A DNA stretch of 41,357 bases, taken from NCBI GenBank assembly GCA_021162805.1, contig JAGGXZ010000095.1, forward strand, positions 1 to 41,357. The letters run 5' to 3'. Under the pieces are notes generated by a model that was given only the letters and a program-made list of their open reading frames with translations, made no database searches and was not told where the DNA came from. The translations under genes and the position numbers were made by a program. This document shows positions 10,210-32,849 of this stretch, piece by piece (positions within the stretch are counted from its first letter, which is position 1; the number at the start of each line of letters is the position of its first letter). Source of the stretch: Candidatus Poribacteria bacterium (lineage in GTDB: Bacteria > Poribacteria > WGA-4E > B28-G17).

Positions 10210-10767
10210 TCAATCTTTGGTCTTGATTTCAACGAAGAATTCCCTATTGAGCAGTAGATTCCAAAATTCCGCTATCTGCCGCGCTATCTTCCCATGAATC
10301 AACACTCCCATTTCCAAGTTTTCCGATAGCCCTGGGCCTGTTAGGTTAGCACTACCGATATAAGCGTATCGGCCATCAACAAGGCAGAATTTAGCATGTG
10401 ATCCAAGCCGTCGTTCATCCTCTATATTAGTTCGGGGCTGAAACAACCGCAAACGCCCATGGGCTTTTTGACGCAAATAGCTCAACTCAAGCGCTCGCAG
10501 GCTGCTTCCAGTACTAACTATGTCAACATCAACACCTCTTCCTAGTGCTGCACGCAAAGCCTCTGCTAATGGCTCACTTTCAAGATTTTCATGTAATTGT
10601 ATAAATGGTGATGCGATAACTATTTGATGCTGGGCCTGCGCAATCAGCTGAATGATCACGCCAAGTGTTGTACGTGCCCGAGCCCTGAAGGCAAGCTCTG
10701 GTCCATAGGGTTCCGGCACGGTAATAACAAACTCAACATTTGACGAGGTATCTTGATCGCCAAGCAT
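10210..10767 (-). CDS. drmC: DrmC-like phospholipase D family protein of a DISARM system
   Basis: This 185-residue protein has a single PLD active-site motif: H124, K126, D131 (HAKFCLVD), followed by N141 in IGSANLTG. PLD-family enzymes of this compact, single-motif type dimerise to form one active site and include nucleases. In DISARM, DrmC is the PLD-domain subunit, reported as dispensable for protection in the systems tested. It is the last gene of the operon, 11 bp after drmB, with AAGGTGA before the ATG. Similarity alone could fit other PLD nucleases, but its place next to drmB and drmA makes the DISARM assignment firm. Confidence 0.88.
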   Translation of the reverse strand: MLGDQDTSSNVEFVITVPEPYGPELAFRARARTTLGVIIQLIAQAQHQIVIASPFIQLHENLESEPLAEALRAALGRGVDVDIVSTGSSLRALELSYLRQKAHGRLRLFQPRTNIEDERRLGSHAKFCLVDGRYAYIGSANLTGPGLSENLEMGVLIHGKIARQIAEFWNLLLNREFFVEIKTKD

Positions 10768-10778
10768 ACTTCACCTTA

Positions 10779-12647: not shown

Positions 12648-12661
12648 AAATACCCCCTTAA

Positions 12662-15600
12662 TTAATGATGATCTTGCGTTGCCCATTGTGAACCCAAGCT
12701 ATCTAGCTCGATTTCAATTGGCTCGTCCACATCTCGCAGGCTGCGCATCGGTTTAGGAATCAGGGCATCGGAGACGAAAGCATTTCCACTGCCTGCGCTT
12801 ACAATTTGATCCAAAAACTGCTGCACTCGCAGTCTGATTTCCTTCTGGAATGCAGCCTCGTTAGGAGGGGGCTGTACACAATAGGCTTGTTCCAGAAGTG
12901 GAATAAAATCATCCGCTTGTAAGGTGCCTTCTGCAATCTTTTGCTTCACGAAGTCTAGCATATAGTAACGATTTGGATTACTCTCGTCGGAGCGATTAGC
13001 GATCAGTTGCAACAACACGCCCATAAACAACCCTGGCAGTGTACGGTTGATACTGAACTTCGACCAACGGTTGATAGCTACTGGCTCGACAAGTTGTCCT
13101 AGGAACTCATGGAACTTAGCAAAGTAGGCGTAGTGGCTTCGATCACGCTCTCGGGCAGGATGCAAGCAGGTAAAAACAATGCCGACATGCGCTCGGCCAA
13201 CACGGCTCGATGCCTGGATATACTCAGCATTTTGACGCGGCATGCCGTAGAAGATCATAGCGTTGAAGCGATTCACGTCCACGCCATGGCTAACCATACT
13301 CGTTGCCAACACGGTATGTGGAGCTTGCTCATCTAAGGAGGATCGTTCTAATCTCTCTAAAATTTGCGCTACTTCATCCGTGCTTGTACTGCCGGTAAGC
13401 TCCGAGATTTCCAGTGGGCTCAGACCGTCCCGAACAAGATTAGGATTGATATCACCTTCGATGTCGGTACGGATAGAGTTAAGTTCGCGGTGCGCCAGGA
13501 AATAAGTCAGAGAGGTACTATAAAAATCTAGCAAAGTTTTCCATTCATCTGTAGCGGGTAGAAGAACACCGCCGTAAGGATTTGGTGCACAAGGGGATAA
13601 ACGTTGCAGGTACTGTACTTCGCGGTGATAGTATTCGATGAGTTCAAGAATGGCATTAAAAATGGTCTTGTTATGGGGAAGAACCCCTACAAACAATCGT
13701 TGAGGATAGTTAAGTGTCTCTGCATAGAACGACTCTTTCAACGTTGGACCTGGACTGGGAAAGACCCGAGCCCGTGTTTGATCTCGACCGTATAGGTGTT
13801 CCACTTGTCGCTGAAAAGCTTCAATTGTAGCAGAGGAAGCGATGATCTTCAACGGTTCCTTCTGGCCGAACTCCTGACGGAGTCTTTGGACGAAAGTCTC
13901 GTAATGAGCATCAAACGTTCCTAATCCTTCCTTAAGTAGATGCAGCTCGTCTTGTACAAATAGAGTCGGTCCAGTTAAGCCCGGTGGAGTACCCACTTGC
14001 AACCTACTCCGATCAGTACAGTCCTTTTGACAGCACTTGCCTTTGTAATAGCCATGTATGATGCAGCGACCATCCACCTGTCCAAATATTTGTGCTAATT
14101 TACGCTGATTCCCTATACCAGCGAGTTTATCGATTGTGCTTACAATGACACAAGGTAGGTAGCGATAGATTTCGTTGTCTACAACGTAAACTGGGATTTC
14201 GCCATTGGGGAAAGCACACTGAGAATTCGTGCAACGATGAATGATGCGAATCTTCTGCGGATCGAATTCTACTCTCACAGTCGTTGTGTGACATGAAGGA
14301 CAGCGGAAAACTCGCTTCCAATATTGACGAGCGCTAGGATCATTTGCCTGACTCCATGTTGAATCCGGAGGATCACCGGAACGAGGAGGAGTAATTTCGT
14401 TTGGTGTGGCTTCCTTACCAACGAAATAACCCACAGCAAAGCCATCCACGCCAGAGCTATTCAAACGAGGGTCAGATTGTTCTCGTCGAACTAGCTCGGC
14501 CACACCGATCACATCAGCTACGCGCTGAGTTTGCTGTAGGGTAAGCAATCGTAAAGGAAAACGCGTCCATGCTGTTACACCTGCTGACTTACCTCGCAAG
14601 CGATCGTAAAAGCAGTGAAAGGTGATCACAGCTAAGTAAGCTTCTGTTTTCCCACCACCGGTTGGGAAATGAATAATGTCTACCATTTCTCGTTCGGCGA
14701 TATCGGGGCTATCTGGATGACGTAGTGAAACAATCCCAGGAATCTGGCTCACGAGGAAAACGATTTGAAACAGCCGCCAACTCTCTTTGGGTGGATAGCT
14801 CCGGCGGAAGGTCTCGTTGGTTAATTTAAAAGCTAAGCGTACGTCCTCATCGTTGCGAATCAGCTCAATCCCCCGTTGGAATCGACGGATTTCATCCTCA
14901 AACTGATGCCGATCTCGGTTAAATTCGCCGCCGAATTGTGTCTGCCATTGAGGATAAGAAGCGATATAACCTTGCCATGCTTTATCCCATTCTTCTAGAT
15001 AGTTTTCCATTGCCTCCAGGATAGTATCAAGGGTCGGGATTGGATCTTCCACTAAATCCGCAAATCGAGCGATAGGTTCTGTCCTTGTGACATAGCGCAT
15101 TTGGCGATAAATAGGAGTATGCGTAGTTTCAAAAGTTGGGGGATCATCGTTCGTTTTCTCTACAGCACAGTTGAACCCGCGCCCCCAGAGATTTCGATTG
15201 TAGCGGAAACCCCGAGGGGCTAATTCCAATTCAAAAGGCAACACCCTCCCCTTATCAAAGCTGAAGATTGCTTTTGTATCGAAGAGAAAGGCCTCAATGT
15301 TAGGAGAGTTCACCTTGCAAGGAGAGACGTTAATGAACTCTAGTGACAATATGTTCTCACTTTGTCCATAGGCGTTGCTTTCTCGCAGTTCTGATCTCAC
15401 CTCCCACTTCCACTCCGGCACGACATCTGTTTGCAACGTTTGAAGAAAAGCTCTGTAATCTTCTTCAGAATCCAAAGCGGCTTCGGGTACCTTAATCTGT
15501 TCATAGGGGGAACGAGACGTGCGGATGCGTTCATTGTCACTCATTGCCGCTTGTTGAGCTCGTTTCATCTCTTCATCTAGAGCAGCTTGCAAACTTGAAT

Positions 15601-16222
15601 CATCCACTGACCACCTCCCATCGGGATGGCAGCACAAAGTGACAACGCCTTGTGCTCTGCAAGGGATTTTGCGAAAGCGGATAAATAGTCGATCTCTAGG
15701 TCTGCGGGCGCGACGCCGATCGAGCGTAGATTCAGCAACTTCAGGAGATTCGATCTCTGCAAGTTCTTCTTCCTGCTCATCCTCAAGCATCAATTTGTTC
15801 GTTGCTAGGTTAGCCCCTGCTTGATTTAGATTTTCAGAGATATTGACGCTGCTATTCGATTCCAGCATGCTCTGTCGTTGATGCTCAATCTGTTGTTCAA
15901 AAGTGGGGAAAACCCGATAGTAACAGGCCCACTGAAGTTCGATCGAAATATTGAGCTTACCAGCCTCAGGGCGTACACGAAATTCTGCTCCAAACGCCAC
16001 AGGAGCAAGCTTGTTGATGAGTTCACGCAAATGAGATGGCTGATTAAACACTCTCTGAGGCTCATTTTGCTTAGGACGCAAACTGCCTATAAAATAGACA
16101 TCATGAGGATAGTTATACAAGCATTCCTGCTCGCTTCGCCCCATAGCTCTTTCACACACTTGCTGGATGAGATATTCTGCAAGCCGCCATTCTTCCTGGG
16201 GAGTCCAATTCTTATCGGTCAT
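12662..16222 (-). CDS. drmA: DrmA-like superfamily 2 helicase of a DISARM system
   Basis: This 1186-residue protein is the DISARM helicase. Walker A is PTGGGKT at 520-526. Motif II is DELH at 758-761 and motif III is SAT at 797-799. The C-terminal RecA domain has LATSMVSHGVDV and the arginine finger motif QASSRVGR at 1003-1010. Between motifs Ia and II lie two zinc-like pairs (CPSC...CTNSQC) and a further cysteine cluster (CIIHG...CCQKDC). A long N-terminal region of about 480 residues precedes the motor, including an acidic linker near residue 150. The ATG at 16222 is chosen because GGAGTGA lies just upstream; it overlaps the preceding stop by 11 bp. It is central to recognising incoming DNA in DISARM. 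Confidence 0.93.
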   Translation of the reverse strand: MTDKNWTPQEEWRLAEYLIQQVCERAMGRSEQECLYNYPHDVYFIGSLRPKQNEPQRVFNQPSHLRELINKLAPVAFGAEFRVRPEAGKLNISIELQWACYYRVFPTFEQQIEHQRQSMLESNSSVNISENLNQAGANLATNKLMLEDEQEEELAEIESPEVAESTLDRRRARRPRDRLFIRFRKIPCRAQGVVTLCCHPDGRWSVDDSSLQAALDEEMKRAQQAAMSDNERIRTSRSPYEQIKVPEAALDSEEDYRAFLQTLQTDVVPEWKWEVRSELRESNAYGQSENILSLEFINVSPCKVNSPNIEAFLFDTKAIFSFDKGRVLPFELELAPRGFRYNRNLWGRGFNCAVEKTNDDPPTFETTHTPIYRQMRYVTRTEPIARFADLVEDPIPTLDTILEAMENYLEEWDKAWQGYIASYPQWQTQFGGEFNRDRHQFEDEIRRFQRGIELIRNDEDVRLAFKLTNETFRRSYPPKESWRLFQIVFLVSQIPGIVSLRHPDSPDIAEREMVDIIHFPTGGGKTEAYLAVITFHCFYDRLRGKSAGVTAWTRFPLRLLTLQQTQRVADVIGVAELVRREQSDPRLNSSGVDGFAVGYFVGKEATPNEITPPRSGDPPDSTWSQANDPSARQYWKRVFRCPSCHTTTVRVEFDPQKIRIIHRCTNSQCAFPNGEIPVYVVDNEIYRYLPCVIVSTIDKLAGIGNQRKLAQIFGQVDGRCIIHGYYKGKCCQKDCTDRSRLQVGTPPGLTGPTLFVQDELHLLKEGLGTFDAHYETFVQRLRQEFGQKEPLKIIASSATIEAFQRQVEHLYGRDQTRARVFPSPGPTLKESFYAETLNYPQRLFVGVLPHNKTIFNAILELIEYYHREVQYLQRLSPCAPNPYGGVLLPATDEWKTLLDFYSTSLTYFLAHRELNSIRTDIEGDINPNLVRDGLSPLEISELTGSTSTDEVAQILERLERSSLDEQAPHTVLATSMVSHGVDVNRFNAMIFYGMPRQNAEYIQASSRVGRAHVGIVFTCLHPARERDRSHYAYFAKFHEFLGQLVEPVAINRWSKFSINRTLPGLFMGVLLQLIANRSDESNPNRYYMLDFVKQKIAEGTLQADDFIPLLEQAYCVQPPPNEAAFQKEIRLRVQQFLDQIVSAGSGNAFVSDALIPKPMRSLRDVDEPIEIELDSLGSQWATQDHH

Positions 16223-17801
16223 CGGTATCACTCCTTTCTAATTTACCTAAACGATTTCTCAGGAATGGCCCTCGTTCTATAGTTAATGACTCCACCGTTA
16301 GTATCAATATTGAGTCTCGAAAATCGCGCAATGATAAATCCAGATCCTCATCGATGATCTCTTCTAGTATTCCTGAATCAATTCCAGCGGCTTGGTGTTC
16401 CAGCCATCGATTTAGACGATTTGCCACTCCTCGATGGAGTCCTGCCAGTCGGTGAGCAGCATAGTGGATACGTTGGTAATATTGACGTACGAAATTCATA
16501 TCCAGTATTTCAGCAAGGCGATACAAATCTTTTGGATCTTGAGGACATAAGGTTCGTCCTTCCAACCACAAACGTAATGTAACCGGAGAAGTTAAACGGC
16601 TACCACGATTCCGCAGTTCCTTCAGTAAATCATTTAAAGAGCGTCTTTTGCTACGCCACCGCTGGTGGTAAGCCATAGCAAAATCGTCTTGCCAGCGTTG
16701 AATGAGCGCTAGGTGAATTTCGATAGCCGGGTGCCGATGAACCCGGGAAATGATCAAATCATATAAACTTTGTCGCCTCTGGTCATGAAGAAAGAACACA
16801 CGGTCACCGCGGCGTAATGCGCGAACATAGCGTTCTTCAAGCCGATTACCGTCCGAACCATTGATAATGACGTTAATGGTATCGTCAGGGGCAAGAAGGG
16901 TTTTCCATCCTCCATCAAAATTCACAGCTACTGCTTCCTCTACCCACGGTTTCTCTTCAATGCCTTCCTCGGTGGATTCATGGTTTTCTCCACTAGCTAA
17001 GCTTCTTTGTACTAAGGAAGCTTCTTCGTCTTCATCAAGGTCCTTTACTCCTAAAAGATTTTCCAGTTCTTCAACTGGATCAGCTTGCAACCAAAGGGAC
17101 TTGGATGTTCTTCCATGAGCATGGGATTTCTTTCCGCGTTTTTCTTCAGATGCGATTATATCATCAGAAGGAATCAATTTGACACATGGTGAAGATGTAG
17201 GAATTTTCATAGGTGGTGAACGCTTAGAGAGACAGACGAGGACTTTCACTTGGCCGCTTGAGTCTCCTGATAGCGCTTCATCCCACCGAGCTATCCGCTT
17301 ATCCAAGATAGGCTCTTGATAAGGGTAAATCAATACGTCCATCTTGCGATGGCGTAGAAGAGAGACTATCTGAGCTGATTGATGTTGGCTTGGTATGCCG
17401 ACAAATAGAGGACGTAAGGATAACTCAAGAGGAATTTGCTGTTCATCGCCCGCGCTTCTCGAGGTGCGTAAACCCGAAAGACTCATGAAACCCACACGTA
17501 GATCGCGCAAGTCATCTTCTGAAATGTTGTACCTAGCTAATAGTGCGAAGCTAAACAATTGTTTTCGAGCTGAACTTGGAAAGACAATCGCCCGAAACTC
17601 ATCTTCCGGAACATCTGAGACGCATAATTCGGTTAGAGCTGACCAAAGCGGTGGTTCTCTACCTCGGAGGTAATCATAAGCGGAATCCAAGCAAACATCA
17701 ACTTCTTCCAACTTGGAAGCCAAGTTAGAATTCACATGATAGATCGATTGGATGAAGCGCCTCATCATGGTACGTAGTTGTGAAATTCTTTTTAGGCCCA
17801 A
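16212..17801 (-). CDS. Defence-operon protein, likely C-terminal half of a DrmE-like protein
   Basis: I do not recognise a firm domain in this 529-residue ORF. It has a mid-region acidic, low-complexity linker (about residues 210-285). A more conserved-looking C-terminal part follows: RRGDRVFFLHDQRRQSLYDL, then HRHPAIEIHLALIQRWQDDF, then SPVTLRLWLEGRTLCPQDP, which may be a winged-helix or DNA-binding segment. The first available start is a TTG without a ribosome binding site; ATGs at 17768 and 17765 are no better placed. Adding a single G to the GGG run at 17797-17799 would join it to the preceding ORF and give a protein of about 870 residues. DrmE of class 2 DISARM is a protein of that order with no known function. 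The assignment rests on position and size. Confidence 0.6.
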   Translation of the reverse strand: MGLKRISQLRTMMRRFIQSIYHVNSNLASKLEEVDVCLDSAYDYLRGREPPLWSALTELCVSDVPEDEFRAIVFPSSARKQLFSFALLARYNISEDDLRDLRVGFMSLSGLRTSRSAGDEQQIPLELSLRPLFVGIPSQHQSAQIVSLLRHRKMDVLIYPYQEPILDKRIARWDEALSGDSSGQVKVLVCLSKRSPPMKIPTSSPCVKLIPSDDIIASEEKRGKKSHAHGRTSKSLWLQADPVEELENLLGVKDLDEDEEASLVQRSLASGENHESTEEGIEEKPWVEEAVAVNFDGGWKTLLAPDDTINVIINGSDGNRLEERYVRALRRGDRVFFLHDQRRQSLYDLIISRVHRHPAIEIHLALIQRWQDDFAMAYHQRWRSKRRSLNDLLKELRNRGSRLTSPVTLRLWLEGRTLCPQDPKDLYRLAEILDMNFVRQYYQRIHYAAHRLAGLHRGVANRLNRWLEHQAAGIDSGILEEIIDEDLDLSLRDFRDSILILTVESLTIERGPFLRNRLGKLERSDTDDR

Positions 17802-18814
17802 TGATATTTAGCTTCACTCTCATAGATGTCTAAGGGAACATGAAGACTTTCCAATGTTCTCAAGTAACTCCATCCAACGTAAAGTGCATCTCGAGCTAAA
17901 CGCCCAACAGCTATGCGTGAGGTATCTACTAAGTTATAGTAGGCATTCTGCAGGTGAGAGAGAAAGTTTCCATCTTTGACCAATATTGGCTGAACACATA
18001 CGCTTGTAGTATGGTTAAAAATTTGCTCTAGAATATTACTACCATCTGGAGGATCCAAGGACGATAAGAGTTGATCTTGTTGGATATATGGCCATCGGAA
18101 GACCAAAGCTCCGGTTCGAAGGAAATCTTCTATGCAAAGGGAAAGTGGATTTTGACACCAAGCAATTACGGGGAGATTATGATCTCGAGTGAATTCCAGT
18201 AGAGGAGGCAACCAGTGAAGCTTAGATTTTTCTCCGCAATCAATGGCTATCCAATCTGGTTGGTGCTGTTTAATCACAGAAATGGGATCAACAGGGGAAT
18301 ATACACAGATGACCGTTGGCAGATTAGTTTCCTCGTGGAGTTGCTGAGATGCTTGATAAGTACCAGAACGAGTTCTGTAAACTTGGGGAAATACAGAGGC
18401 TAGATTTATTCTCCCAGCTTTGGTCTGTACTAAATGTTGCCTTATGCCTACTGTTGAGCCAAAATAAAGCACAAGTCCCCTACCGAATGCGCCACATATA
18501 TTGCGATCCCCACCGATAGTATCAAGGGCGTACATAAGTAAACCGGTGGCGAATAATAGTGGTGGACGATGAGGACTAGCATTTGGAAGAACAATTAATA
18601 AGCGTTCACGTCGGTGCAAGGTAGCGCAGATCAACCGGGCGCTCCGTTCGTCTATGATGTCAGGGCTTCCCAAACTTGGGTCGATGTTTAAACGCCCTTC
18701 TTGCCACAGCCTTTGGAAGAAAAGCTCATTACTACGAGGAAGAACAAAGAAAGCCTCATCTAACCATTGATAGAATTCTTGATTTGATCCGTTAGAGTTT
18801 GAGGATCGGCTCAA
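17792..18814 (-). CDS. Defence-operon protein, likely N-terminal half of a DrmE-like protein (degenerate helicase-like)
   Basis: The 340-residue ORF looks like one RecA-type domain of a helicase-like fold without a working Walker A. Predicted strands include RRERLLIVLPNASPHRPPLL (a motif I/Ia-like position), RGLVLYFGSTVGIRQHL and WIAIDCGEK, which sits where motif II would be. No P-loop (GxGKT) is visible, so ATP hydrolysis by itself is unlikely. The start is a TTG at 18814 that overlaps the upstream TGA stop in a TTGA arrangement, with GGGGAGGG just before it; the track start six codons upstream is less likely. See the next ORF for the one-base split. Confidence 0.6.
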   Translation of the reverse strand: MSRSSNSNGSNQEFYQWLDEAFFVLPRSNELFFQRLWQEGRLNIDPSLGSPDIIDERSARLICATLHRRERLLIVLPNASPHRPPLLFATGLLMYALDTIGGDRNICGAFGRGLVLYFGSTVGIRQHLVQTKAGRINLASVFPQVYRTRSGTYQASQQLHEETNLPTVICVYSPVDPISVIKQHQPDWIAIDCGEKSKLHWLPPLLEFTRDHNLPVIAWCQNPLSLCIEDFLRTGALVFRWPYIQQDQLLSSLDPPDGSNILEQIFNHTTSVCVQPILVKDGNFLSHLQNAYYNLVDTSRIAVGRLARDALYVGWSYLRTLESLHVPLDIYESEAKYHWA

Positions 18815-20973
18815 CCAGCTCCCTCCCCGCAAAGAAGTTGAAAGTAAATGATCGTGACGATGCTATTTCTCTGAAGATCAGGATACAGTGCTCGTAGGTT
18901 GCTCTGAAGCTCGGATAAAGATGAGAAGCCGTCGTTTCTCGCATCTTCAGCAGTGAGCTTCGAAAACCGCTTACGGATGATTTTGATGACTCTTACCGGC
19001 AGGTATTCTTCTCCGCATTGGAATAGCAGTAGATCTGATTGAAGAAACTTACGCCCCTTCCGTATCGTCGTCCGCTTGTCGCCGCGACGGACTGCGGAAA
19101 AGAATTCGGGCAGCAAACGAAGAGTGGGAACACCATTGGCAGCAGGACCATCACGTAGTTGTGACACCCTCTTGGTGAATTCCTGCCCATCCCAAATTCG
19201 GTGTTCCCAAGCACTAGTCAACTGAAGCACAAGATCGGGTTTAAGCGAGGTAAGAAACATTTCGCAGTGAGGAGCAGCTACAATTAAAGTCGCGCCAAAT
19301 TGACGTGCGGTATGCTGTAGTTTCTCTGCTACGACATTAGCCGTTACGGGATCAAGATTCGCACAGAATTCATCAATCAGCCAAACATTACAGCGGTCCG
19401 AAAGTAGCTTGGCAAGCATCGCTCGATATTGTTGTCCTTTACTAAGTTCTTCAAAGCGCTTCAGATAAATAAACGCATCCGATAATCCCACAAGCCCCAT
19501 AAGGTACAAAGCGGAACGAACATCTCGCTTATCCATCACTTCTATTAAGGCTTTGCGAGAGCGAATGGGTTGAAAAATTCCTGGTCTATAATTCTTTGGA
19601 AGCTGCAATTCGCCTTCTATCCGGAAAGCTTTTTTTTCCGTTTCTTTCTTGGACAGCAATTCAAGCAATGTCGTCTTCCCCGAACCCGAAGGACCAATGA
19701 TCAAAACGATGCTTCCAGGTTTAATTTTCATTGAGAGATTGCGGATAACTATAGTCTTGATCGCATCGGGAGAGATTCCAAAAGCCTGCTGGATAGCGTG
19801 AGTTTGACGCGTCCTTCGAACTTGCGATTCAAATGTCAACGTGATGTTCTTCAATAGTATTGGATTTGTCAGAGGGTCAAGTGAGATCGAAGGAGGTGTA
19901 TGTCCATTGGAAGGGGCAATCTCCTTAGCCCGTTTTCGCACAAAATTATCGGTTTCTTCGGTTAATCCCATCATGTAAGTCGGCTTAGGCAGGCTGACAA
20001 TCTCATGGAAAAAGGCGAAATCACGAAGAACATTATCACGTGACAGTCTTTGCAAACGCCTTACAAGTTCTTCCTTGCTCAGCCCTTCCTGCTCCATAAG
20101 GCGTAATGCACGATCCAATCGTGCGACTTGTTGATCTACAATGCCACACGACTCCTCAGAGACGATTTCACCGCTTTTCACACGTTTGGCATTGCTAAGT
20201 AAGTAAGCCATATCCTTATGAACCCTCTTCAGATTGCCCTCTGTTTCTCCGATATAGACCATCCCGGCTTTCTCGACAAAAGGTACATATTTCAACATAT
20301 CCGCGGAAATCTCCAAAAAGAGGGGTTTCCAACCGCTCACTTGCCATCGTTCCCGAGCAAACTGTGCTGCATGTTTGACCAAGATCTGACCTAACCCTAA
20401 GCCACGAAACTCCGGGTAAACCACACAACGGGCGATCCGTACGATAAGATGTATATATTTCCGCATTGTGGACTTTTTCCAAGCTTTCCACGCTATTCCG
20501 TCTAATCGAAACGATGTATTCAGAATCTCTGCACGTGCCTTATTCATGTAGAAAGGAGTAGCTAGTTCAATATATCCTAAAACTTCCGGATGTAGGGGGT
20601 GAAACGAGCGTACAATCAGACGAGCTGTGCGACCATAAATCGCTTTTCCTCGATAATGGGAATTCGAAAGAGATTGATAAGCTTCATATTCCTCAGGTTC
20701 TGTAATTTCCTTAATGAGGACTTCTACTACAGTGCTGCCAAGCTGTAGCTTTTCTGGATGTGCGTAAGGGGGAAGAAATTGCGCTTGGCCATTTCTACAG
20801 ATAACCGATGCTTTTCCATCTCTGAACCGGACCCTATCGCCTTTAGTAACACACGCGGAACGGGGGACTGTTAACCATAAATCTTTAGGATAAAGCCGCA
20901 AACGTTTTACATGTCCATTCCAATTAACAGAGACAACGGCAAAGCAATCATTTTGGCTCTCGTTGCTTTGCAT
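18811..20973 (-). CDS. GNAT acetyltransferase - ABC ATPase - ASCH domain fusion, first gene of the DISARM-like operon
   Basis: This 720-residue fusion appears soluble. Residues about 85-260 form a GNAT N-acetyltransferase with the acetyl-CoA loop RGLGLG at 190-195 and VVYPEF just before it. Residues about 365-600 form a soluble ABC ATPase: Walker A GPSGSGKTT at 427-435, signature LSKGQQ at 510-515, Walker B with D534-E535 and an H-loop histidine at 569. No membrane segments are present. Residues about 621-715 resemble an ASCH domain (PUA-like nucleic-acid or nucleotide binding) with K633, T635, T636, R638 and D681. As I recall the ac4C amidohydrolase YqfB, its catalytic Lys-Thr-Glu would align with K633, T636 and D681. 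TTAGGAGA before the ATG supports the start. It opens the operon and its stop overlaps the next ORF. Confidence 0.85.
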   Translation of the reverse strand: MQSNESQNDCFAVVSVNWNGHVKRLRLYPKDLWLTVPRSACVTKGDRVRFRDGKASVICRNGQAQFLPPYAHPEKLQLGSTVVEVLIKEITEPEEYEAYQSLSNSHYRGKAIYGRTARLIVRSFHPLHPEVLGYIELATPFYMNKARAEILNTSFRLDGIAWKAWKKSTMRKYIHLIVRIARCVVYPEFRGLGLGQILVKHAAQFARERWQVSGWKPLFLEISADMLKYVPFVEKAGMVYIGETEGNLKRVHKDMAYLLSNAKRVKSGEIVSEESCGIVDQQVARLDRALRLMEQEGLSKEELVRRLQRLSRDNVLRDFAFFHEIVSLPKPTYMMGLTEETDNFVRKRAKEIAPSNGHTPPSISLDPLTNPILLKNITLTFESQVRRTRQTHAIQQAFGISPDAIKTIVIRNLSMKIKPGSIVLIIGPSGSGKTTLLELLSKKETEKKAFRIEGELQLPKNYRPGIFQPIRSRKALIEVMDKRDVRSALYLMGLVGLSDAFIYLKRFEELSKGQQYRAMLAKLLSDRCNVWLIDEFCANLDPVTANVVAEKLQHTARQFGATLIVAAPHCEMFLTSLKPDLVLQLTSAWEHRIWDGQEFTKRVSQLRDGPAANGVPTLRLLPEFFSAVRRGDKRTTIRKGRKFLQSDLLLFQCGEEYLPVRVIKIIRKRFSKLTAEDARNDGFSSLSELQSNLRALYPDLQRNSIVTIIYFQLLCGEGAG

Positions 20974-24168: not shown

Positions 24169-24522
24169 CTATATCACCCTCAACCCGTGCCTCTCGACGA
24201 AATCCTTAAAGTCGCTTTTCTCCAGCGCTATGACGTCCACATCCCTGTTTAAGACCCTTTCAAGCTCACATCCCAGCTCCCACACATCCCCTTTGAATCC
24301 CTTAACCGCCACGTCGATATCCGAAAATTCGTAAAACTTTCCCTCGCGCAGTAGGGATCCTATAAGGTAGACCGCCTCCACATCCACGCCTTGGAAGTAT
24401 CCTTTGAGGGCGGCTATCGTTCCCCTCAAGGTCTCCTTCCTGAGGTTCTCCCTCAGGAGGAAATCCTTCTCCTTTCTATGTCGTATAAGCTGCCTTCCCA
24501 GCTCAAATTTCCCTCTCCTCAT
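24169..24522 (-). CDS. MntA-like minimal nucleotidyltransferase (antitoxin of a HEPN/MNT pair)
   Basis: The 117-residue protein is a minimal nucleotidyltransferase. G55-S56 and the D68-x-D70 metal pair (GSLLREGKFYEFSDIDVAV) form the active site and D96 in DVDVIAL is a likely third acidic residue. In studied pairs such as Shewanella oneidensis, MntA blocks the HepT toxin by adding AMP groups to a tyrosine in its active site. The partner here is the preceding gene, with 20 bp of overlap. A longer N-terminal helix of about 40 residues precedes the core. Stop and mutS start are adjacent. Confidence 0.88.
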   Translation of the reverse strand: MRRGKFELGRQLIRHRKEKDFLLRENLRKETLRGTIAALKGYFQGVDVEAVYLIGSLLREGKFYEFSDIDVAVKGFKGDVWELGCELERVLNRDVDVIALEKSDFKDFVERHGLRVI

Positions 24523-24982
24523 AGCTCAGATCCTTTACGAATTCAAGAAAGCGATTTAAGTCCTCGCGGAGAACCTCGAAGTCTTCCCTAAACATCTTCT
24601 GAAGCTTTTCTATCTCCTCCCTATCCAGCTCATAGTCATAGGCATGTCTGATAAAATGTCTGAACCTCCTCAATCTGTCAAGGAATCGGAACGCTCTTTC
24701 GTCAATAACGGCCATTCGTATCTCAGGAACTTCGGTGTTCATCCTGACCAAAAGCTCGCGGTGAAACCTGGTAGGGTCTTCGACCCTATTTTCAAACACT
24801 CTGGCTATCTCCTTGAAGAGGTCCTCCAGGGCCGTGTAGAATTGCTGGGCCTTTAATGCGAAGACATAGAGATTCTCGTATTTCGCCAGATCGAGCTCAG
24901 CGACATCACCGTAGAGCCTTTCCAGTATCTCAAGTTGTCTGGAGAAGAAGCCCTCCAAGAGCTTCAGATCCTCGAGTTTCAC
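24503..24982 (-). CDS. HepT-like HEPN-domain toxin
   Basis: This 159-residue helical protein has the HEPN RNase motif R-x4-H followed by x-Y: R108, H113 and Y115 in RHFIRHAYDYEL. That is the RX4HXY motif of HepT toxins, in which the tyrosine is the site AMPylated by MntA. HEPN toxins dimerise and cut RNA or tRNA. The start is a GTG at 24982 with GGGG seven bases upstream. The promoter at 25016-25044 lies just before it. Its N-terminal half is longer than in minimal HepT proteins. Toxic activity is inferred from the motif and partner, not shown. Confidence 0.85.
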   Translation of the reverse strand: MKLEDLKLLEGFFSRQLEILERLYGDVAELDLAKYENLYVFALKAQQFYTALEDLFKEIARVFENRVEDPTRFHRELLVRMNTEVPEIRMAVIDERAFRFLDRLRRFRHFIRHAYDYELDREEIEKLQKMFREDFEVLREDLNRFLEFVKDLSYEEREI

Positions 24983-25046: not shown

Positions 25047-27464
25047 CTAAATCTGTCCTCTCAGCTTGGCGTCGACCCTTTCCTCAAGGGCTCTCAGAAG
25101 CCTTCTCAGCTCCTCGTCCACCTCCTGATCGGTCAATGTCCTTTCAGGTGAGACGAAATCTATGGTATAGGCCAAGCTTTTGAGGCCCTCCGGTATCCTA
25201 TCCCCTTCATACAGGTCGAAGAGCCTGACGGAGCTAACGAGCGGGCTGAAAGAACGTATGATCTCAGTGACCTCCTCGGAAGGCAGATCGCTGCGCACAA
25301 GGAGCGCTATGTCCCTTGTGAGCTTTGGGAACTGAGGGATAGGGATGAACCTACGGGACAGATCCGAAGCCTCGCACAGCAGATCAAAGTCAAGCTCAAA
25401 CAGGTACACCCTTTGCGGTATATCCCATCGTTCAAGCACATCCGGATGAACCTCGCCTAAGATCCCCACTTTCTCCCCGCCGACGATCAGATCTGCCGAT
25501 CTCCCGGGATGCAGGAAGGGCTCTCCGGATCTGATGAACCTCGCCTCCTTCACGCCGAAACCGTCCAACAGTTCCTCGACGATCCCCTTCAGATCGAAGA
25601 AGTCGGGCTCTCGTTCAGGATCGCACCATGTCCCGGCGGACATAGTGCCGCTCAACACCCCGCCCAGCATCTCTCTCTCCAGGGGCAGTTCCTCCGGATG
25701 ATCGGGTTTGGGCCAGAAGGTTCGAGCCAGCTCGAAGAGCTTGACCTGTCTGACCTGATGTCTGATGTTCCACGAGACGTTCTCCAACAGGCTGGGCACG
25801 AGGGTTGTGCGCATAACGGACTGCTCCCTGCTGAGCGGGTTACGGAGATTCACCGTCCTTCTGCGGGGATCGTCCTCTGGAAGGAGGATCATATCGAACC
25901 AACCCGGATCGTAAAAGGAGTAATTCACGGCCTCGCTCAATCCGGAGCCCAGCATGACCTTTCGGGCTATATTCCGCAACCTCTCCCTCAGGTTCGGTTC
26001 GGCCTCCGGGACCTCCCCAAACGGCATGAAGGTGGGTATTTTGTCGTATCCGTAGATCCTGGCCACCTCCTCTATGAGATCGACCTCCCGTTCTATGTCC
26101 GGCCTGAAGCTGGGCGCCTCCACGCTGATCGTCCCGTCCGGTTCCCTAACGGTCTTGAATTTAAGCCTCCGGAATATATCCTCCATCTCCTCGGTCGATA
26201 TCTCCGTGCCGAGCAGATAGTTGCATCTCTGAGGTCTGAATTTGATGTGGAACTGCGTTCTCTTTTTGGGATATGCGTCCGCCATCCCGCGGCATATCAT
26301 CCCACCGGCGATCTCCACCATCAGTTGAGCCGCTCTCGCCGATGCGGTCACCAGCCCTTCGATATCCGTGCCCCTCTCGAATCTATGTGATGCCTCGGTA
26401 TGCATGCCGAGCGCCTTAGAGGTTTTGCGTATGCTGACAGGGTTGAAATATGCGCTTTCGAGCAGCACCTCTGTAGTCCGATCGGTCACCTCGCTATCCT
26501 CTCCGCCCATGATCCCGGCGAGGGCCACGGGTTTCCGGGCATCGGCTATGACGAGCATATCCGACCTGAGCTTTCTGAGCTCCCCGTCCAGTGTGACCAG
26601 CTCCTCGCCATCTTTTGCCCTACGGACGACGATCCTGTTTTCCTCCAGCTTCCTATAATCGAAGGCATGTAACGGATGGCCGAGCTCCATGAGGACGTAG
26701 TTGGTGATATCCACGACGTTGTTTATGGGCCTTAAGCCCACGGCGTTAAGCCTCCATCTCATCCACCAGGGCGAGGGGGCTATCTTGACGTCCAGGATCA
26801 CCCTGGCGGTATATCTGGGACATAGATCGGGATCCTCGATGAGAACGGAGGTTACCTCCTCCACAGGCGGTCCCTGTTCGATGAGGTTTATCTCTATGGG
26901 GCGAAGCGGGTTTCCGGTGATGGCTGAGATCTCGCGGGCGATCCCATATACGCTGAGGCAATCCGGCCTGTTGGGGGTGAGATCGAACTCAATCACCACC
27001 GTAGGCAGGTTCAGCGCCTCGTTCAACCTCATTCCGACGGGGAGTCCTTCAGGAAGCTCCATCAATCCTGAGGCCTCCTCCGATAACCCCAGCTCCCTTT
27101 CGGAGCAGAGCATGCCGTACGATTCCACTCCTCTGATTTTCGCCACCTTGAGCGTCATGCCGATCGGGAGATTAGAGCCGATCAGTGCCATCGGGGCGAG
27201 CATTCCCTTTCTGACGTTCGGCGCGCCACAGACCACCTGAAGTTTTTGTGCTCCCACATCCACATGACAGATCTTTAATTTGTCGGCGTTGGGATGCCTT
27301 TCGATCGAGATCACCTTTCCGATGACGACCCTATCGTCTATCCCCTCGCCGATTCTCTCTATAGCATCGACCTCAAGCCCGGCCATGGTAAGCCTATCGG
27401 CCAGCTCCTCAGGTGTGAGGTCGAAATCCACGAACTCTTTGAGCCAATCAAGGGTAACTCGCAT
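25047..27464 (-). CDS. pheT: Phenylalanyl-tRNA synthetase beta subunit PheT
   Basis: The 805-residue beta subunit pairs with PheS in an alpha2-beta2 enzyme that charges tRNA-Phe. The N-terminal EMAP/tRNA-binding region (VVIGKVISIERHPNADKLKICHVD), the B3/B4 editing domain (HPLHAFDYRKL, then EASHRFERGTD), the B5 domain and the C-terminal ferredoxin-like anticodon-binding domain (FPKLTRDIALLV, then RLFDLYEGDRIPEGLKSLAY) are all visible, so the protein is full length. CGGAGG before the ATG at 27464 supports the start. It is separated from pheS by the small DUF4258/DUF2283 pair. Confidence 0.97.
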   Translation of the reverse strand: MRVTLDWLKEFVDFDLTPEELADRLTMAGLEVDAIERIGEGIDDRVVIGKVISIERHPNADKLKICHVDVGAQKLQVVCGAPNVRKGMLAPMALIGSNLPIGMTLKVAKIRGVESYGMLCSERELGLSEEASGLMELPEGLPVGMRLNEALNLPTVVIEFDLTPNRPDCLSVYGIAREISAITGNPLRPIEINLIEQGPPVEEVTSVLIEDPDLCPRYTARVILDVKIAPSPWWMRWRLNAVGLRPINNVVDITNYVLMELGHPLHAFDYRKLEENRIVVRRAKDGEELVTLDGELRKLRSDMLVIADARKPVALAGIMGGEDSEVTDRTTEVLLESAYFNPVSIRKTSKALGMHTEASHRFERGTDIEGLVTASARAAQLMVEIAGGMICRGMADAYPKKRTQFHIKFRPQRCNYLLGTEISTEEMEDIFRRLKFKTVREPDGTISVEAPSFRPDIEREVDLIEEVARIYGYDKIPTFMPFGEVPEAEPNLRERLRNIARKVMLGSGLSEAVNYSFYDPGWFDMILLPEDDPRRRTVNLRNPLSREQSVMRTTLVPSLLENVSWNIRHQVRQVKLFELARTFWPKPDHPEELPLEREMLGGVLSGTMSAGTWCDPEREPDFFDLKGIVEELLDGFGVKEARFIRSGEPFLHPGRSADLIVGGEKVGILGEVHPDVLERWDIPQRVYLFELDFDLLCEASDLSRRFIPIPQFPKLTRDIALLVRSDLPSEEVTEIIRSFSPLVSSVRLFDLYEGDRIPEGLKSLAYTIDFVSPERTLTDQEVDEELRRLLRALEERVDAKLRGQI

Positions 27465-27489: not shown

Positions 27490-27753
27490 TCAAGCTGCCA
27501 GTTCGACCAGAGATTTGCTGAGCAATGAGCTCAAATCCTCAATCCCATAACGCTCAGATAGTTCTTTGAATACCGATTTCATATCGACTGAAGAGGGATC
27601 CAATATCTCAATCGCCAGTAGCCGTCCCTGTTTGTCTAGATCAAGAAATATTTCCTGTTCCTCCGTATACTCCACCGTTTTCGCTATTTCCCCTTCTCTC
27701 AGTCGGAAATATAGAGCTTTTGCCTCTTCATCAATTTCAAGGATGATATGCAT
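27490..27753 (-). CDS. DUF2283 family protein (putative antitoxin-like partner)
   Basis: The 87-residue protein has the DUF2283 pattern: DEEAKALYFRLREGEIAKTVEY followed by EIFLDLDKQGRLLAIEILDPS. DUF2283 proteins are usually encoded next to DUF4258 proteins and are thought to act as a pair, possibly a toxin-antitoxin module. AGGTGA nine bases upstream selects the ATG at 27753; the ATG at 27771 is an alternative and would overlap the DUF4258 stop. A C-terminal extension of about 30 helical residues follows the core. Confidence 0.82.
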   Translation of the reverse strand: MHIILEIDEEAKALYFRLREGEIAKTVEYTEEQEIFLDLDKQGRLLAIEILDPSSVDMKSVFKELSERYGIEDLSSLLSKSLVELAA

Positions 27754-27755
27754 TT

Positions 27756-27992
27756 TTATCTCACCTGCCATGCTGTAATAATTTTGATTACTTGTTTCTC
27801 CTCCTTATACACAACCCCAAGAGTTCTCACGCCGAGTTTTCGCTCTGCTCGGCGACATCCCTTTGATCGAGCTTTCCTTTCCCTATCAGGTTTTTCAATT
27901 ACTTTAACGGTTTGCTCTTCTGTTATATGGCGTTCCAACATACGTCTTCGAGCGTGAAACGTGAATTCTACTCTCTTTTTTCCGATATACAA
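27756..27992 (-). CDS. DUF4258 family protein (putative toxin-like partner)
   Basis: The 78-residue protein shows the DUF4258 signature FTFHARRRMLERHITEEQ, with a later strand KLGVRTLGVVYKEEKQVIKIITAW. The fold is RelE/BrnT-like in general character, so an RNase or related role is possible but unproven. The start is a TTG at 27992 with AGGGGATTAAAG just before it. It begins 18 bp after pheS and is followed directly by the DUF2283 gene. Confidence 0.82.
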   Translation of the reverse strand: MYIGKKRVEFTFHARRRMLERHITEEQTVKVIEKPDRERKARSKGCRRAERKLGVRTLGVVYKEEKQVIKIITAWQVR

Positions 27993-28010: not shown

Positions 28011-29030
28011 TCACTGGAATTGTTCGAGAAACCTCATGTCGTTTTCAAAAAGCAACCTGATATCGTTTATGCCGTATCGAAGCATGGCGATCCGTTCCAC
28101 GCCCATCCCGAAGGCGAATCCGGTAATTCTCTCAGGGTCATAGCCTACTGCCTTGAACACCTCCGGATCGACTGAGCCGGAGCCGAGTATCTCCATCCAT
28201 CCCGTTCCCTTACACGTGCGACATCCCTTTCCACCGCAGATGATGCAGGAGATATCCACCTCCGCTGACGGTTCGGTGAAGGGAAAGAAGCTGGGGCGAA
28301 ATCTGAGCCTGGTCTCAGGGCCGAACATCTGGTGGGCGAATGAGGTTAAAACTCCCTTCAGCTCGGCAAAAGTTACACGCTCGTCCACCATCAATCCTTC
28401 AACCTGGTGGAACATCGGACTGTGTGAGATATCGGCATCCCGTCTGTAGACCCTGCCGGGGGCTATGATCCGAATGGGCGGTTTGCGCTTCTCCATAACC
28501 CTGATCTGGACGGGAGATGTCTGTGTTCTGAGGAGGACTCTGTCGGTTATGTAGAACGTATCCTGCATGTCGCGGGCGGGATGATGTTCAGGGGTGTTAA
28601 GCGCCTCGAAGTTATGGTATTCATCCTCCACTTCGGGTCCCTCAACCACCTGGAATCCCATTCCGAGGAATATCTCCTTGATCCTCTCCAGCGTCTGTGT
28701 GATCGGGTGCTCGACGCCGAGAGGGGGTCTCCTTCCGGGGAGGGTTATATCCACCTTTTCGGCAGCGAGTTTCCGTTCCCTCTCCTCCCGTATCAGCCTC
28801 TCCCTTGTCTCCTCCAGAGCCTCGTTTATAGTGGATCTGACCTGATTTGCTAGCCTACCGATAATCGGCCTCTGATCGGGAGGCAGCTTTGACATGCCTT
28901 TAAGCAGGTTGGTCAATTTGCCCTTGCGCCCGAGGTATGAGACCCTTATAGCTTCGAGTTCATCGAGGGTTTTAGCCGTTTTGAGTTTACCTATGATCTC
29001 CGTCTCAATCTCCCTGAGTTCCTTTTCCAT
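28011..29030 (-). CDS. pheS: Phenylalanyl-tRNA synthetase alpha subunit PheS
   Basis: The 339-residue alpha subunit holds the class II catalytic core: motif 1 near GFQVVEGPEVEDEYHNFEALN, motif 2 near RTQTSPVQIRVM and VYRRDADISHSPMFHQVEGLMVD, and motif 3 near FGMGVERIAMLRYG. Two cysteine pairs (CIICGGKGCRTCKGTGW) lie between motifs 2 and 3, as in many bacterial PheS. An ATG at 29045 lacks a ribosome binding site; GGAGG positioned eight bases before the ATG at 29030 makes that the likely start. Expression is controlled by the T-box leader directly upstream. Confidence 0.95.
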   Translation of the reverse strand: MEKELREIETEIIGKLKTAKTLDELEAIRVSYLGRKGKLTNLLKGMSKLPPDQRPIIGRLANQVRSTINEALEETRERLIREERERKLAAEKVDITLPGRRPPLGVEHPITQTLERIKEIFLGMGFQVVEGPEVEDEYHNFEALNTPEHHPARDMQDTFYITDRVLLRTQTSPVQIRVMEKRKPPIRIIAPGRVYRRDADISHSPMFHQVEGLMVDERVTFAELKGVLTSFAHQMFGPETRLRFRPSFFPFTEPSAEVDISCIICGGKGCRTCKGTGWMEILGSGSVDPEVFKAVGYDPERITGFAFGMGVERIAMLRYGINDIRLLFENDMRFLEQFQ

Positions 29031-29054
29031 CTGCGTTTCCTCCATGCTTTATAA

Positions 29055-29116
29055 CAAAAAAGGCTTGCGTTTTCCATCCTCAGCCTACTTTGGCCGGGGA
29101 CGAAAGCGCAAGCCTT
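29055..29116 (-). terminator. Intrinsic terminator of the pheS T-box leader
   Basis: On the minus strand AAGGCTTGCG (29116-29107) pairs perfectly with CGCAAGCCTT (29069-29060), followed by a T-run. The hairpin ends 25 bases before the pheS start codon, so it can switch pheS off when uncharged tRNA-Phe is scarce. Confidence 0.92.
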
Positions 29117-29345
29117 CAAATACGCTTCCGCGGTACCACCCCGGTTGACAGATCCCCTTGGGATCTGCCCACTCATCCTTCCCGGTAACGGCGGGGAACC
29201 GTCCAGGCCTACTCGCCCTGGATGGGTTTCAGCCTGGAAGCTCCGGAGCGAAATTCAGCCGGCGGCCCCGAAGGGATGCTTTCAGCCGGTGACATCCCCT
29301 CTCTGTTCGGGGTTTACGCGGGCCTACTTATCTCCTTCACTGCCT
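29055..29345 (-). promoter_or_regulatory. T-box riboswitch (tRNA-Phe) controlling pheS
   Basis: On the minus strand the conserved T-box GGTGGTACCGCG lies at 29140-29129, followed by the terminator. Upstream are the specifier loop (GGCTGAATTTCGCTCC, with UUC at 29252-29250, the Phe codon) and the conserved GTTACCGGGAAGGATGAGTGGG region. Uncharged tRNA-Phe would bind the specifier by its anticodon and the T-box by its CCA end, stabilising the antiterminator and allowing pheS transcription. The 5' boundary at about 29345 is approximate. Confidence 0.93.
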
Positions 29346-29742
29346 TTGTCGGTATATTCTGTCTGTTGGGATGGGATCTCATTATCCCATCCCGCCCGAA
29401 GAGATACGCCAGAAAGGCGTGTATCGAACCCGTTCTTTTGAAAATCTCCCAGTGACCTCCTCTCATCTCCAAAGGAGATGAGCTTCCTCCCTCATCGAAG
29501 CGGCTTACATCGGAGGAACGAGGAGAAAGGAAATCCGTTGCACGTTCAACGTTTAACGTTGTAACGTTTTCCACTCCTGGTTCCTCGTTCCTTAACCTTT
29601 GCAGAGGCCCTCTCCTCCAGAGGCTTAACTTCGGACCGGTCCGGCCCTAGGGTTTTATACCAAAGGTATTATACCACAACCTTAACCTTTACCTCAACCT
29701 GTATAGAGTGGGCTTTCCTGGCGGAATTCCTTCCATCAGATC
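29117..29742. other. Long pheS leader and repeat-filled spacer after rplT
   Basis: Apart from the T-box, this stretch holds no gene. It contains small hairpins and repeats: a GGGATGGGAT/ATCCCATCCC hairpin near 29370, AACGTT-rich sequence near 29540-29570, a GGACCGGTCC palindrome at about 29633-29642, and AACCT repeats near 29676-29700. Confidence 0.6.
29668..29697 (-). promoter_or_regulatory. Candidate promoter for the pheS leader
   Basis: On the minus strand TTGAGG (29697-29692) and TATAAT (29673-29668) are 18 bp apart. The spacer is made of the AGGTTAAGG repeat. If used, the leader would be about 630 nt long. Confidence 0.45.
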
Positions 29743-30105
29743 TCAGGAGGCGGCGAGCTGTGATTTAGCCGTTTCAACCAGCTTAGCGAAGGCATCGGAG
29801 TCGTTGATGGCGACATCGGCCAGCATTTTCCTATCGAGCTCCACCCCGGCAAGCTTCAAGCCGTGCATGAATCTACTGTATGAGAGCCCATATGGTCTCA
29901 CGGCGGCGTTGATCCTGACGATCCACAGCCGCCTGAAATCCCGCTTGCGTAATCTCCTGTGCTCGTAGGAGTGCTGCCAGGCTTTATGTACGGCCTCCGT
30001 CGCCGTACGTATCAGGTTCTTTCTGCCACCTCTGAATCCCTTAGCGTACTTGAGGATTTTCCTCTTTCGCTTTCGAGCGGTTACCCCTCTCTTTACCCTC
30101 GGCAT
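29743..30105 (-). CDS. rplT: 50S ribosomal protein L20
   Basis: The 120-residue protein matches L20: it begins [19 protein letters not shown] with the [13 protein letters not shown] segment, and continues with [35 protein letters not shown]. It binds 23S rRNA early in large-subunit assembly. Length fits the family. It follows rpmI by 31 bp, the standard infC-rpmI-rplT order. Confidence 0.98.
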
Positions 30106-30136: not shown

Positions 30137-30334
30137 TTATCCATACGGCAGAAGTCTCTTTATCCTCTTTTCGTCAGCCGGATCGACCAGATCGCTTCGT
30201 CGAAGCCTTCTCTTACGCTTCGCGGTTTTGTTGAGGAAGAGGTGTCCTGCGTATGCCTTATACCTTTTGATCTTTCCGGAGCTGGTGACCTTGAACCTCT
30301 TCCTAGCGCTTCTGTTGCTTTTCATCTTCGGCAT
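30137..30334 (-). CDS. rpmI: 50S ribosomal protein L35
   Basis: The 65-residue basic protein (MPKMKSNRSARKRFKVTSSG, then HLFLNKTAKRKRRLR) is L35. The ATG at 30334 is preferred: it gives the family's usual length and has AGGGGG at a normal spacing, while the ATG at 30343 is too close. The gene overlaps the 3' end of infC by 32 bp in another frame, a tight arrangement that would couple their translation. Confidence 0.95.
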   Translation of the reverse strand: MPKMKSNRSARKRFKVTSSGKIKRYKAYAGHLFLNKTAKRKRRLRRSDLVDPADEKRIKRLLPYG

Positions 30335-30863
30335 CTTCGTCATCCCCCTTTTCCGTCATCTCCGGATTGGGCACGAGCAGGATGCTCATCATCCTTCCGT
30401 CCATCCTGGGATACTGTTCGATACTTCCCACATGGGAGAGGTCGGCTGCGAATTTCTCAAGCATCTTCCGCCCTAAATCGGCGTGTACCACCTCTCTGCC
30501 TCTGAAGATTATGGAGATCTTGACCCTTTTGCCCGACCGAAGGAATTTCTCGGCATGGCGGAGTTTGAACTGGTAATCGTGGTCGGCTATGTCGTATTTG
30601 AACCTTATCTCCTTGAGCTCGGCGGTTTTCTGATGTTTTTTGGCCTCACGCGCTCGCTTCTTCTGCTCGTACATGTACTTGCCGTAATCCATTATCTTGC
30701 AAACGGGAGGCGATGCCTTGGGCGCCACCTCCACCAGATCCAGCCCTTTCTGCTGGGCTATCCTCATCCCCTCTTTGGGGGTCATTATCCCAAGCTGTTT
30801 GCCGTTTTCGTCGATGACCCGTATCTTTCTCACACGGATCTGCCAGTTAACCCTCGGCTCTAT
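30303..30863 (-). CDS. infC: Translation initiation factor IF-3
   Basis: The 186-residue factor binds the 30S subunit, prevents subunit joining and checks start codons. The N-domain (IRVRKIRVIDENGKQLGIMT), the linker and the C-domain (FRGREVVHADLGRKMLEKF) are in order, with a charged tail. No ATG lies at the right place. A TTG at 30893 has no ribosome binding site. CTGGAGGTG six bases before an ATA at 30863 suggests an AUA start, giving MEPRVNWQIRV, like the N-terminus expected for IF-3. Rare starts (AUU, AUA, AUC) are known for infC, where IF-3 represses its own translation. Confidence 0.95.
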   Translation of the reverse strand: MEPRVNWQIRVRKIRVIDENGKQLGIMTPKEGMRIAQQKGLDLVEVAPKASPPVCKIMDYGKYMYEQKKRAREAKKHQKTAELKEIRFKYDIADHDYQFKLRHAEKFLRSGKRVKISIIFRGREVVHADLGRKMLEKFAADLSHVGSIEQYPRMDGRMMSILLVPNPEMTEKGDDEDAEDEKQQKR

Positions 30864-30923
30864 CTTACGCACCTCCAGATAGATTTTCCACAATTAAATC
30901 ATACAAGTTAAGGGGAGTAAAAG

Positions 30924-32849
30924 TCAAGGGTAAGTGGCTTTGCTCTCGATCTCCTCTTTGATCTTCCGGATGAAATCCTCAACTTTCATCCCACCGAGAT
31001 CCTCACCCCTTCGGGTTCTAACGGCCACCGTTCCGCTATCCTTCTCCCTGGCGCCGACGATCAGCATATAAGGGATCTTTTCCAGTTGGGCCTCCCTTAC
31101 CTTGTAACCGAGCTTCTCTCCCCGGATATCATTATCGGCTCTCAACCCCGCCTCCTTTAACCTTCTGGTGATCTGAAGAGCGTAATCCTCCTGATCTCTT
31201 GTGATGTTCATCACCCTCACCTGGACCGGAGCGAGCCAGATCGGAAACGCCCCGGCATAGTGCTCGATCAACACGCCGAAGAACCGTTCCAAGGAACCCA
31301 GGAGCGCCCTGTGAACCATGTACGGCCGATGTTCCCTGCCGTCCTCCCCCACATAACTGAGATCGAACCGTTCCGGCAGGTTGAAGTCGAACTGTATCGT
31401 GGAACACTGCCATGATCTTCCGATGGCGTCCTTGATCTTTATGTCTATCTTAGGACCATAAAATGCTCCTCCTCCCTCATCCACTTCAAAGGAAAGCCCC
31501 TCAGCTTCGAGCGCATTGCGGAGCGAGTTCTGCGCCTGCTCCCATCTTTCGGGCTCGCCGACCGCCTTTTCGGGCTTGGTCGAGAGATAAACCTCGAACT
31601 GATCGAACCCGAAGGAGCGCAACATCTCAAGCGAAAACCGCAGCACGCGCAGTATCTCCTCCTCTATCTGTTCGGGAGTGCAGAAGATATGGGCGTCATC
31701 CTGAGTGAACCCCCTCACCCTCATCAATCCATGCAGCACACCGCCTCTTTCGTACCGATAGACCGTTCCAAGCTCAGCCCATCTCAGGGGTAGGTCGCGA
31801 TACGATCTGATCCTAGTCTTATAAATCATTATGTGAAACGGGCAATTCATCGGTTTGAGGTAGTAGTCCTGTCCGTCCACGTCCATAGGAGAATACATAT
31901 TCTCGCTGAAGAAATCGAGATGTCCGGAGGTCTTCCAGAGCCATGATCTCCCGATATGTGGGGTATAGACGAACTCGTATCCACCTTTGATGTGTTGATC
32001 ACGCCAGAAATCCTCGATGATCTTTCTTATCATCGCCCCCTTAGGATGCCAGTATACCAGCCCTGCTCCGGCCACCTCGTGGAAGGAGAACAGATCCAAC
32101 TGTCTGCCGAGCCTGCGGTGATCCCGTCTCTCGGCCTCCTCTATCCTTCTGAGGTGCGCGTCCAGGTCGGATTTTCTCTCGTAGGCGGTTCCGTAGATCC
32201 GCTGGAGCATCTTCCTACTTTCGTCTCCCCTCCAGTATGCCCCCGCGGCGCTAAGGAGCTTGACCACCTTCAGTTTGCCCGTGCTGGGGAGGTGCGGTCC
32301 CCTGCACAGATCCACGAATTTATCGTGCTCATAAAGCGAGACGATCTCGTCCTCCATCTCATTAAGCAGTTCGACCTTGTAGATCTCCCCCATCTCCTCG
32401 AACAGCCTTATCGCCTCATCCTTCGTAACCTCCCTGCGTTTGAAGGGATAATCAGCCTTGATGATCTGACGCATTCTCTCCTCGATCCTTTCCAGGTCAT
32501 CCGGCGTAAAGGGTTTCGGCACGTCGAAGTCATAGTAGAAACCATCCTCTATCGCCGGGCCTATGCCGAGTTTCGCCTCGGGGAAGAGCTCTTTGACCGC
32601 CTGCGCCATGACGTGTGAGGCCGAGTGCCGATACACTCGTCGCCCCTCCTCATCACGGAAGGTCAAGATACGGACCTCGGCGTCGGATGTGATCGGTCGG
32701 GTTAAATCCACAAGCTCTCCGTTAACCAGGGCTGCCAGCGCCGCTTTGGCGAGACCCGGACCGATATCCGAAGCTATCTCTAGCGGGGTTATACCCTTCG
32801 GATACTCCTTAGACGAACCGTCCGGAAAGGAGATCTTCACCGTATCCAC
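30924..32849 (-). CDS. thrS: Threonyl-tRNA synthetase
   Basis: The 641-residue enzyme charges tRNA-Thr. Present in order: TGS domain (residues 1-60), the editing domain with [17 protein letters not shown] and the CRGPHL zinc-type motif (about 180-190), the class II catalytic core with [11 protein letters not shown] and [23 protein letters not shown], and the C-terminal anticodon-binding domain ([17 protein letters not shown]). Length is normal. The start is a GTG at 32849 with AAGGTGA upstream. It is only 24 bp beyond the terminator of the tRNA operon, so no separate promoter fits between them except within the tRNA region. Confidence 0.97.

Follow-up and report, generated by a model that had tools for sequence, protein, structure and literature searches.

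Finding a T-box riboswitch ahead of pheS in a poribacterial genome raises two questions: whether the leader is a genuine regulatory element that responds to tRNA-Phe, and how it came to stand there. The locus lies in the window analyzed here, a stretch of 41,357 nucleotides (contig JAGGXZ010000095.1) from a Candidatus Poribacteria bacterium. A sequence-only reading had described a complete T-box with a UUC specifier and a strong terminator before pheS, and had suggested that this would be an unusual occurrence in such a lineage and may reflect transfer. We consider it very probable that the leader is a tRNA-Phe-sensing class I T-box of pheST that has been inherited vertically within the Poribacteria, with stem II lost in genera g19 and g20 of family f8 and the leader eroded in several other genomes to antiterminator plus terminator or to a terminator only.

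Anatomy and predicted operation of the pheS leader

The structural part of the earlier description was borne out. The Infernal check that it had called for (cmscan, RF00230) returned a full-length match (model positions 1-219; window 29349-29093, minus strand) at 111.8 bits and an E value of 4.4e-24, above the curated gathering score of 93 bits, and the complete T-box, its UUC specifier, and its strong terminator were confirmed by this match, by the competing hairpins, and by the Pfam identification of PheS downstream. The span first proposed, 29055-29345, takes in the terminator as well, which ends at 29056. When the whole window was scanned more permissively, only three tRNAs were found beyond the T-box.

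Table 1. Features of the pheS leader and the genes around it, in window coordinates
Feature	Position	Strand	Basis
pheS T-box leader, whole (aptamer, antiterminator, terminator)	29056..29349	-	RF00230 match and terminator fold
Stem I (K-turn base, AG bulge, distal loop, specifier loop)	29239..29344	-	Rfam alignment; helices covary
Specifier codon UUC (Phe)	29250..29252	-	Read from sequence; leader alignments
Stem II and Stem IIA/B region	29180..29237	-	Rfam alignment and sequence reading
Stem III, 9 bp	29147..29169	-	Sequence reading and Rfam alignment
Antiterminator; its T-box bulge UGGUACC starts at 29138	29096..29142	-	Fold, -19.5 kcal/mol
Intrinsic terminator with U-run; 5' arm overlaps antiterminator 3' arm	29056..29117	-	Fold, -36.7 kcal/mol
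pheS	28011..29045 (likely start 29030)	-	Pfam PF01409 (1.1e-105), PF02912
pheT	25047..27464	-	Pfam B3_4, B5, FDX-ACB, tRNA_bind
rplT, gene upstream of the T-box	29743..30105	-	Pfam PF00453
infC, upstream in block	30303..30893	-	Pfam
thrS, upstream in block	30924..32849	-	Pfam

The element has the layout of the class I T-boxes typified by B. subtilis tyrS (RF00230), with a long Stem I that holds the specifier in an internal loop and ends in a distal elbow-binding module, an F-box stem II, a stem III, a UGGN antiterminator, and a transcription terminator (Table 1). Within Stem I, the AG bulge (AGAGAG) starts at 29304 and the distal loop (GGCUGAAAGC) at 29287, and helix 4 covaries. The F-box, CCGUUA, lies at 29191-29186 in the stem II region, where helix 5 covaries among the poribacterial leaders. 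UUC occupies the aligned specifier position in every aligned class I and stem-II-less pheS leader, and the T-box bulge of the antiterminator is near-invariant among relatives. The arm CGCUUUCGUCCCC is common to antiterminator and terminator, which makes the two hairpins mutually exclusive, and the terminator is the more stable (-36.7 versus -19.5 kcal/mol), in keeping with a switch whose default state is off. Across 15 poribacterial class I leaders, 23 pairs were changed on both sides and 94% of cells were paired, a level of covariation reached by 0 of 500 shuffles; the shuffle controls used for this set and for the f8 set below do not correct for relatedness, and controls with slid partners, which keep it, agree. 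The window element is a real, canonical, and well-conserved class I T-box.

What sets it apart from the textbook class I element is its host and its position between rplT and pheS, in the minus-strand order thrS, infC, rplT, T-box, pheS, a DUF2283 ORF, and pheT. The first pheS ATG (29045) stands immediately behind the terminator, but the likelier start is the next in-frame ATG, at 29030, which has GGAGG closely upstream. The pheS T-boxes of Bacillota share the gene and the phenylalanine specificity, and 7 of the 8 Bacillota leaders read carry the F-box CCGTTA, but in the loci read they do not lie directly behind rplT. The pheM leader-peptide attenuator of Escherichia coli also sits between rplT and pheST and likewise acts by attenuation, although it senses ribosome stalling at Phe codons and not the tRNA directly.

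ARAGORN was run on the tRNA loci of the window's genome, a set to which three weaker tRNA matches do not belong, and identified a single tRNA-Phe gene, with a GAA anticodon, A73, and an encoded CCA. The UUC specifier agrees with this anticodon and with the downstream pheS, and the UGGU of the bulge is complementary to the ACCA end (A73). By analogy with the established T-box mechanism, the specifier would pair with the anticodon GAA, the tRNA elbow would be read by the AG bulge together with the distal loop, and the free ACCA end of uncharged tRNA would pair with UGGU. With tRNA-Phe charged, the more stable terminator would form and pheST would be off; as uncharged tRNA-Phe accumulates, the antiterminator would be stabilized and pheST transcribed.

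Inheritance and origin within the Poribacteria

The expectation that such a T-box would be out of the ordinary in this lineage did not survive comparison across the phylum. RF00230 matches are present in 79 of its 85 genomes, and a T-box lies upstream of 66 of the 85 pheS loci (in G039 at a distance of 1.7 kb). Where the contig extends far enough, rplT almost always precedes pheS and the leader sits in the gap between them; family f7 differs, its pheS lying elsewhere and lacking a T-box. With this distribution, the mostly uncultured phylum moves from an unexpected host to a lineage in which T-boxes are the rule. In the literature searched, no earlier report of a T-box in Poribacteria was found.

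The host phylum is Poribacteria, since G037 and G068, two genomes of the window's phylum, contain as exact substrings the contig pieces L003 and L004, both titled Candidatus Poribacteria; the placement of the T-box outside the Firmicutes was right. In the sampled PheS tree, the Poribacteria form one clade (97% SH-aLRT) apart from Bacillota, with G011 outside. The window PheS falls within this clade. It is 76% identical to, and pairs with, the PheS of G003, a genome of the same family, which makes a contaminating contig unlikely. Because poribacterial PheS is monophyletic and apart from Bacillota, the leader is old within the phylum, and it has been inherited vertically. The exception, G011, has a PheS that is only 51% identical and forms a long branch outside the clade, yet its gene (L225) lies directly behind rplT with a class I T-box; the gene may have been replaced while its leader was kept, or it may have evolved fast.

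Transfer could in principle have happened recently or long ago. A recent horizontal transfer of the leader from Bacillota, alone or with pheS, would fit the concentration of T-boxes in that phylum; an older survey placed >95% of them in Firmicutes, and the single planctomycete that it covered had none (PMC2494555). It would also fit the named pheS loci, where the core motif occurs upstream only in Bacillota and Poribacteria, the exception being a variant motif in L078 at a distance of 629 bases. We nevertheless reject this explanation as very improbable, given that the leader occupies one and the same site between rplT and pheS across the phylum and that PheS is monophyletic and not nested in Bacillota, whose T-box loci lack rplT directly upstream of the leader. 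The earlier suggestion of transfer into the lineage is not supported in this form. Of the phylogenies that had been proposed as checks, the PheS tree gave a clear answer, while a tree of 38 leader RNAs, with several long branches, left the pheS leaders and those of Bacillota without clear order.

It is a different matter whether the poribacterial ancestor long ago acquired the leader alone by transfer and passed it on vertically, and we give this a little under an even chance. T-boxes were present in 3 of the 22 genomes reached via close PheS relatives (Moorella, a Pelobacter, and one MAG titled Proteobacteria); T-boxes are absent from 19 of the 21 genomes that are not Bacillota and number one or two in the other two, and both poribacterial T-boxes, before pheS and before ilv genes, are phylum-wide. 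Common descent with losses elsewhere accounts for the same pattern, however, and the RNA tree gives no resolution at such depth. This alternative concerns the origin of the leader and is compatible with T-box switching.

Erosion of the leader and probable stem-II-less phenylalanine T-boxes

The pheS leaders were assigned to classes by reading their segments, since an F-box regular expression gave chance matches in the f8 linkers. Class I leaders occur in 20 genomes, stem-II-less leaders in 46 (G039 included), and leaders that keep antiterminator and terminator without Stem I in three (G028, G053, and G083, all f8), and no T-box core stands beside pheS in 14; G004, whose contig is cut, is outside these counts. 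All 46 stem-II-less leaders fall in one f8 subclade (genera g19 and g20), and g17 of f8 keeps stem II. The PheS tree requires 13 changes among leader states, most simply explained if stem II was lost once and leaders then eroded further several times. The 14 genomes without a core indicate that the switch is dispensable; six of them (G005, G031, G033, G052, G061, and G074) keep a hairpin formed from the old terminator arms. Another is G003, of the window's own family, whose rplT-pheS gap (L142) lacks a T-box and has a terminator-like hairpin (-38.8 kcal/mol) directly before pheS, so that the aptamer was likely lost and the terminator kept. Insertions within otherwise intact pheS T-boxes were seen at five loci, L201 (G010), L187 (G027), L217 (G055), L167 (G058), and L166 (G049); they lie in stem III, the antiterminator loop, or the linker, and some are palindromic and repeat-like.

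In the g19/g20 relatives, the stem II domain and its F-box are absent, and in the 27 aligned leaders an A-rich linker of 9-17 nt takes their place, with extra linker insertions in G049, G058, G060, and G080. Such a linker in place of stem II has been described for class II T-boxes of the B. subtilis glyQS type, which are glycine-specific (PMC10482949). The f8 specifier, in contrast, is UUC (Phe) in 27 of 27 aligned leaders; the window element itself is not class II. Stem II has been described as essential only for A-U-rich codons (PMC7583486), and UUC is A-U rich, which makes these leaders surprising. An altered tRNA-Phe offsetting the lost stem II was rejected, as the tRNA-Phe in the f8 genomes read has a GAA anticodon, A73, and an unchanged anticodon loop. 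At no more than 86 bits, the f8 leaders score below the Rfam cut-off of 93, and annotation at that cut-off therefore misses them, L003 and L004 included.

On comparative grounds, we think it probable that the pheS leader of f8 g19/g20 (46 species) is a working, stem-II-less, phenylalanine-specific T-box. That these leaders are instead in decay and have stopped sensing tRNA seems unlikely, though it is the reading suggested by the Stem-I-less and terminator-only leaders that f8 also holds and by G063, which has UGGUCCC in place of UGGUACC. Decay sits poorly with the conservation of the specifier, distal loop, purine string, stem III, and T-box bulge while the linker drifts (99.6% identity in the T-box core versus 66% in the linker over the 27 aligned leaders). 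The f8 stems moreover covary, with 18 pairs changed on both sides, a number that 0 of 500 shuffles reached, and pairing drops from 98% to 40-49% when partners are slid. Terminators are intact, with terminator-like hairpins in all 45 stem-II-less leaders tested (median, -31.8 kcal/mol). The f8 orthologues likely represent a non-glycine, stem-II-less type that is new relative to the published descriptions compared. As natural RNAs facing the same tRNA anticodon loop, they make the current explanation of the role of stem II directly testable.

The ilv T-box and other features of the window

The window's genome carries a second, valine-type T-box before ilvD-ilvB-ilvN-ilvC; the poribacterial T-box regulon is small, comprising pheST (Phe) and ilv (Val). 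In G002 the ilv T-box precedes ilvD, the remaining leaders read stand before a gene of ilvB type, and ilvBNC was confirmed with Pfam in G084. In the tree of 38 leader RNAs, the ilv T-boxes of Poribacteria group as a single clade (100/100*). Their specifier is GUC (valine) in the leaders read, except at L226 in G025, where the ilvB T-box has AUC (isoleucine). A core match at the wrong place in L107 was disregarded.

Several neighboring features of the window, all on the minus strand where a strand was assigned, are recorded here. The small DUF2283 ORF between pheS and pheT spans 27490-27771, and a Polbeta-type nucleotidyltransferase with a HepT-like partner, a pair of toxin-antitoxin type, lies between pheT and mutS (24169-24982). 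A DISARM-like defense operon occupies 10210-17801, where consecutive ORFs match DrmC, DrmB, DrmA, and DrmE. It is preceded by an unassigned ORF at 17792-18832 and by another ORF at 18811-20973, which has ABC, ASCH, and acetyltransferase domains and a weak similarity to mad3.
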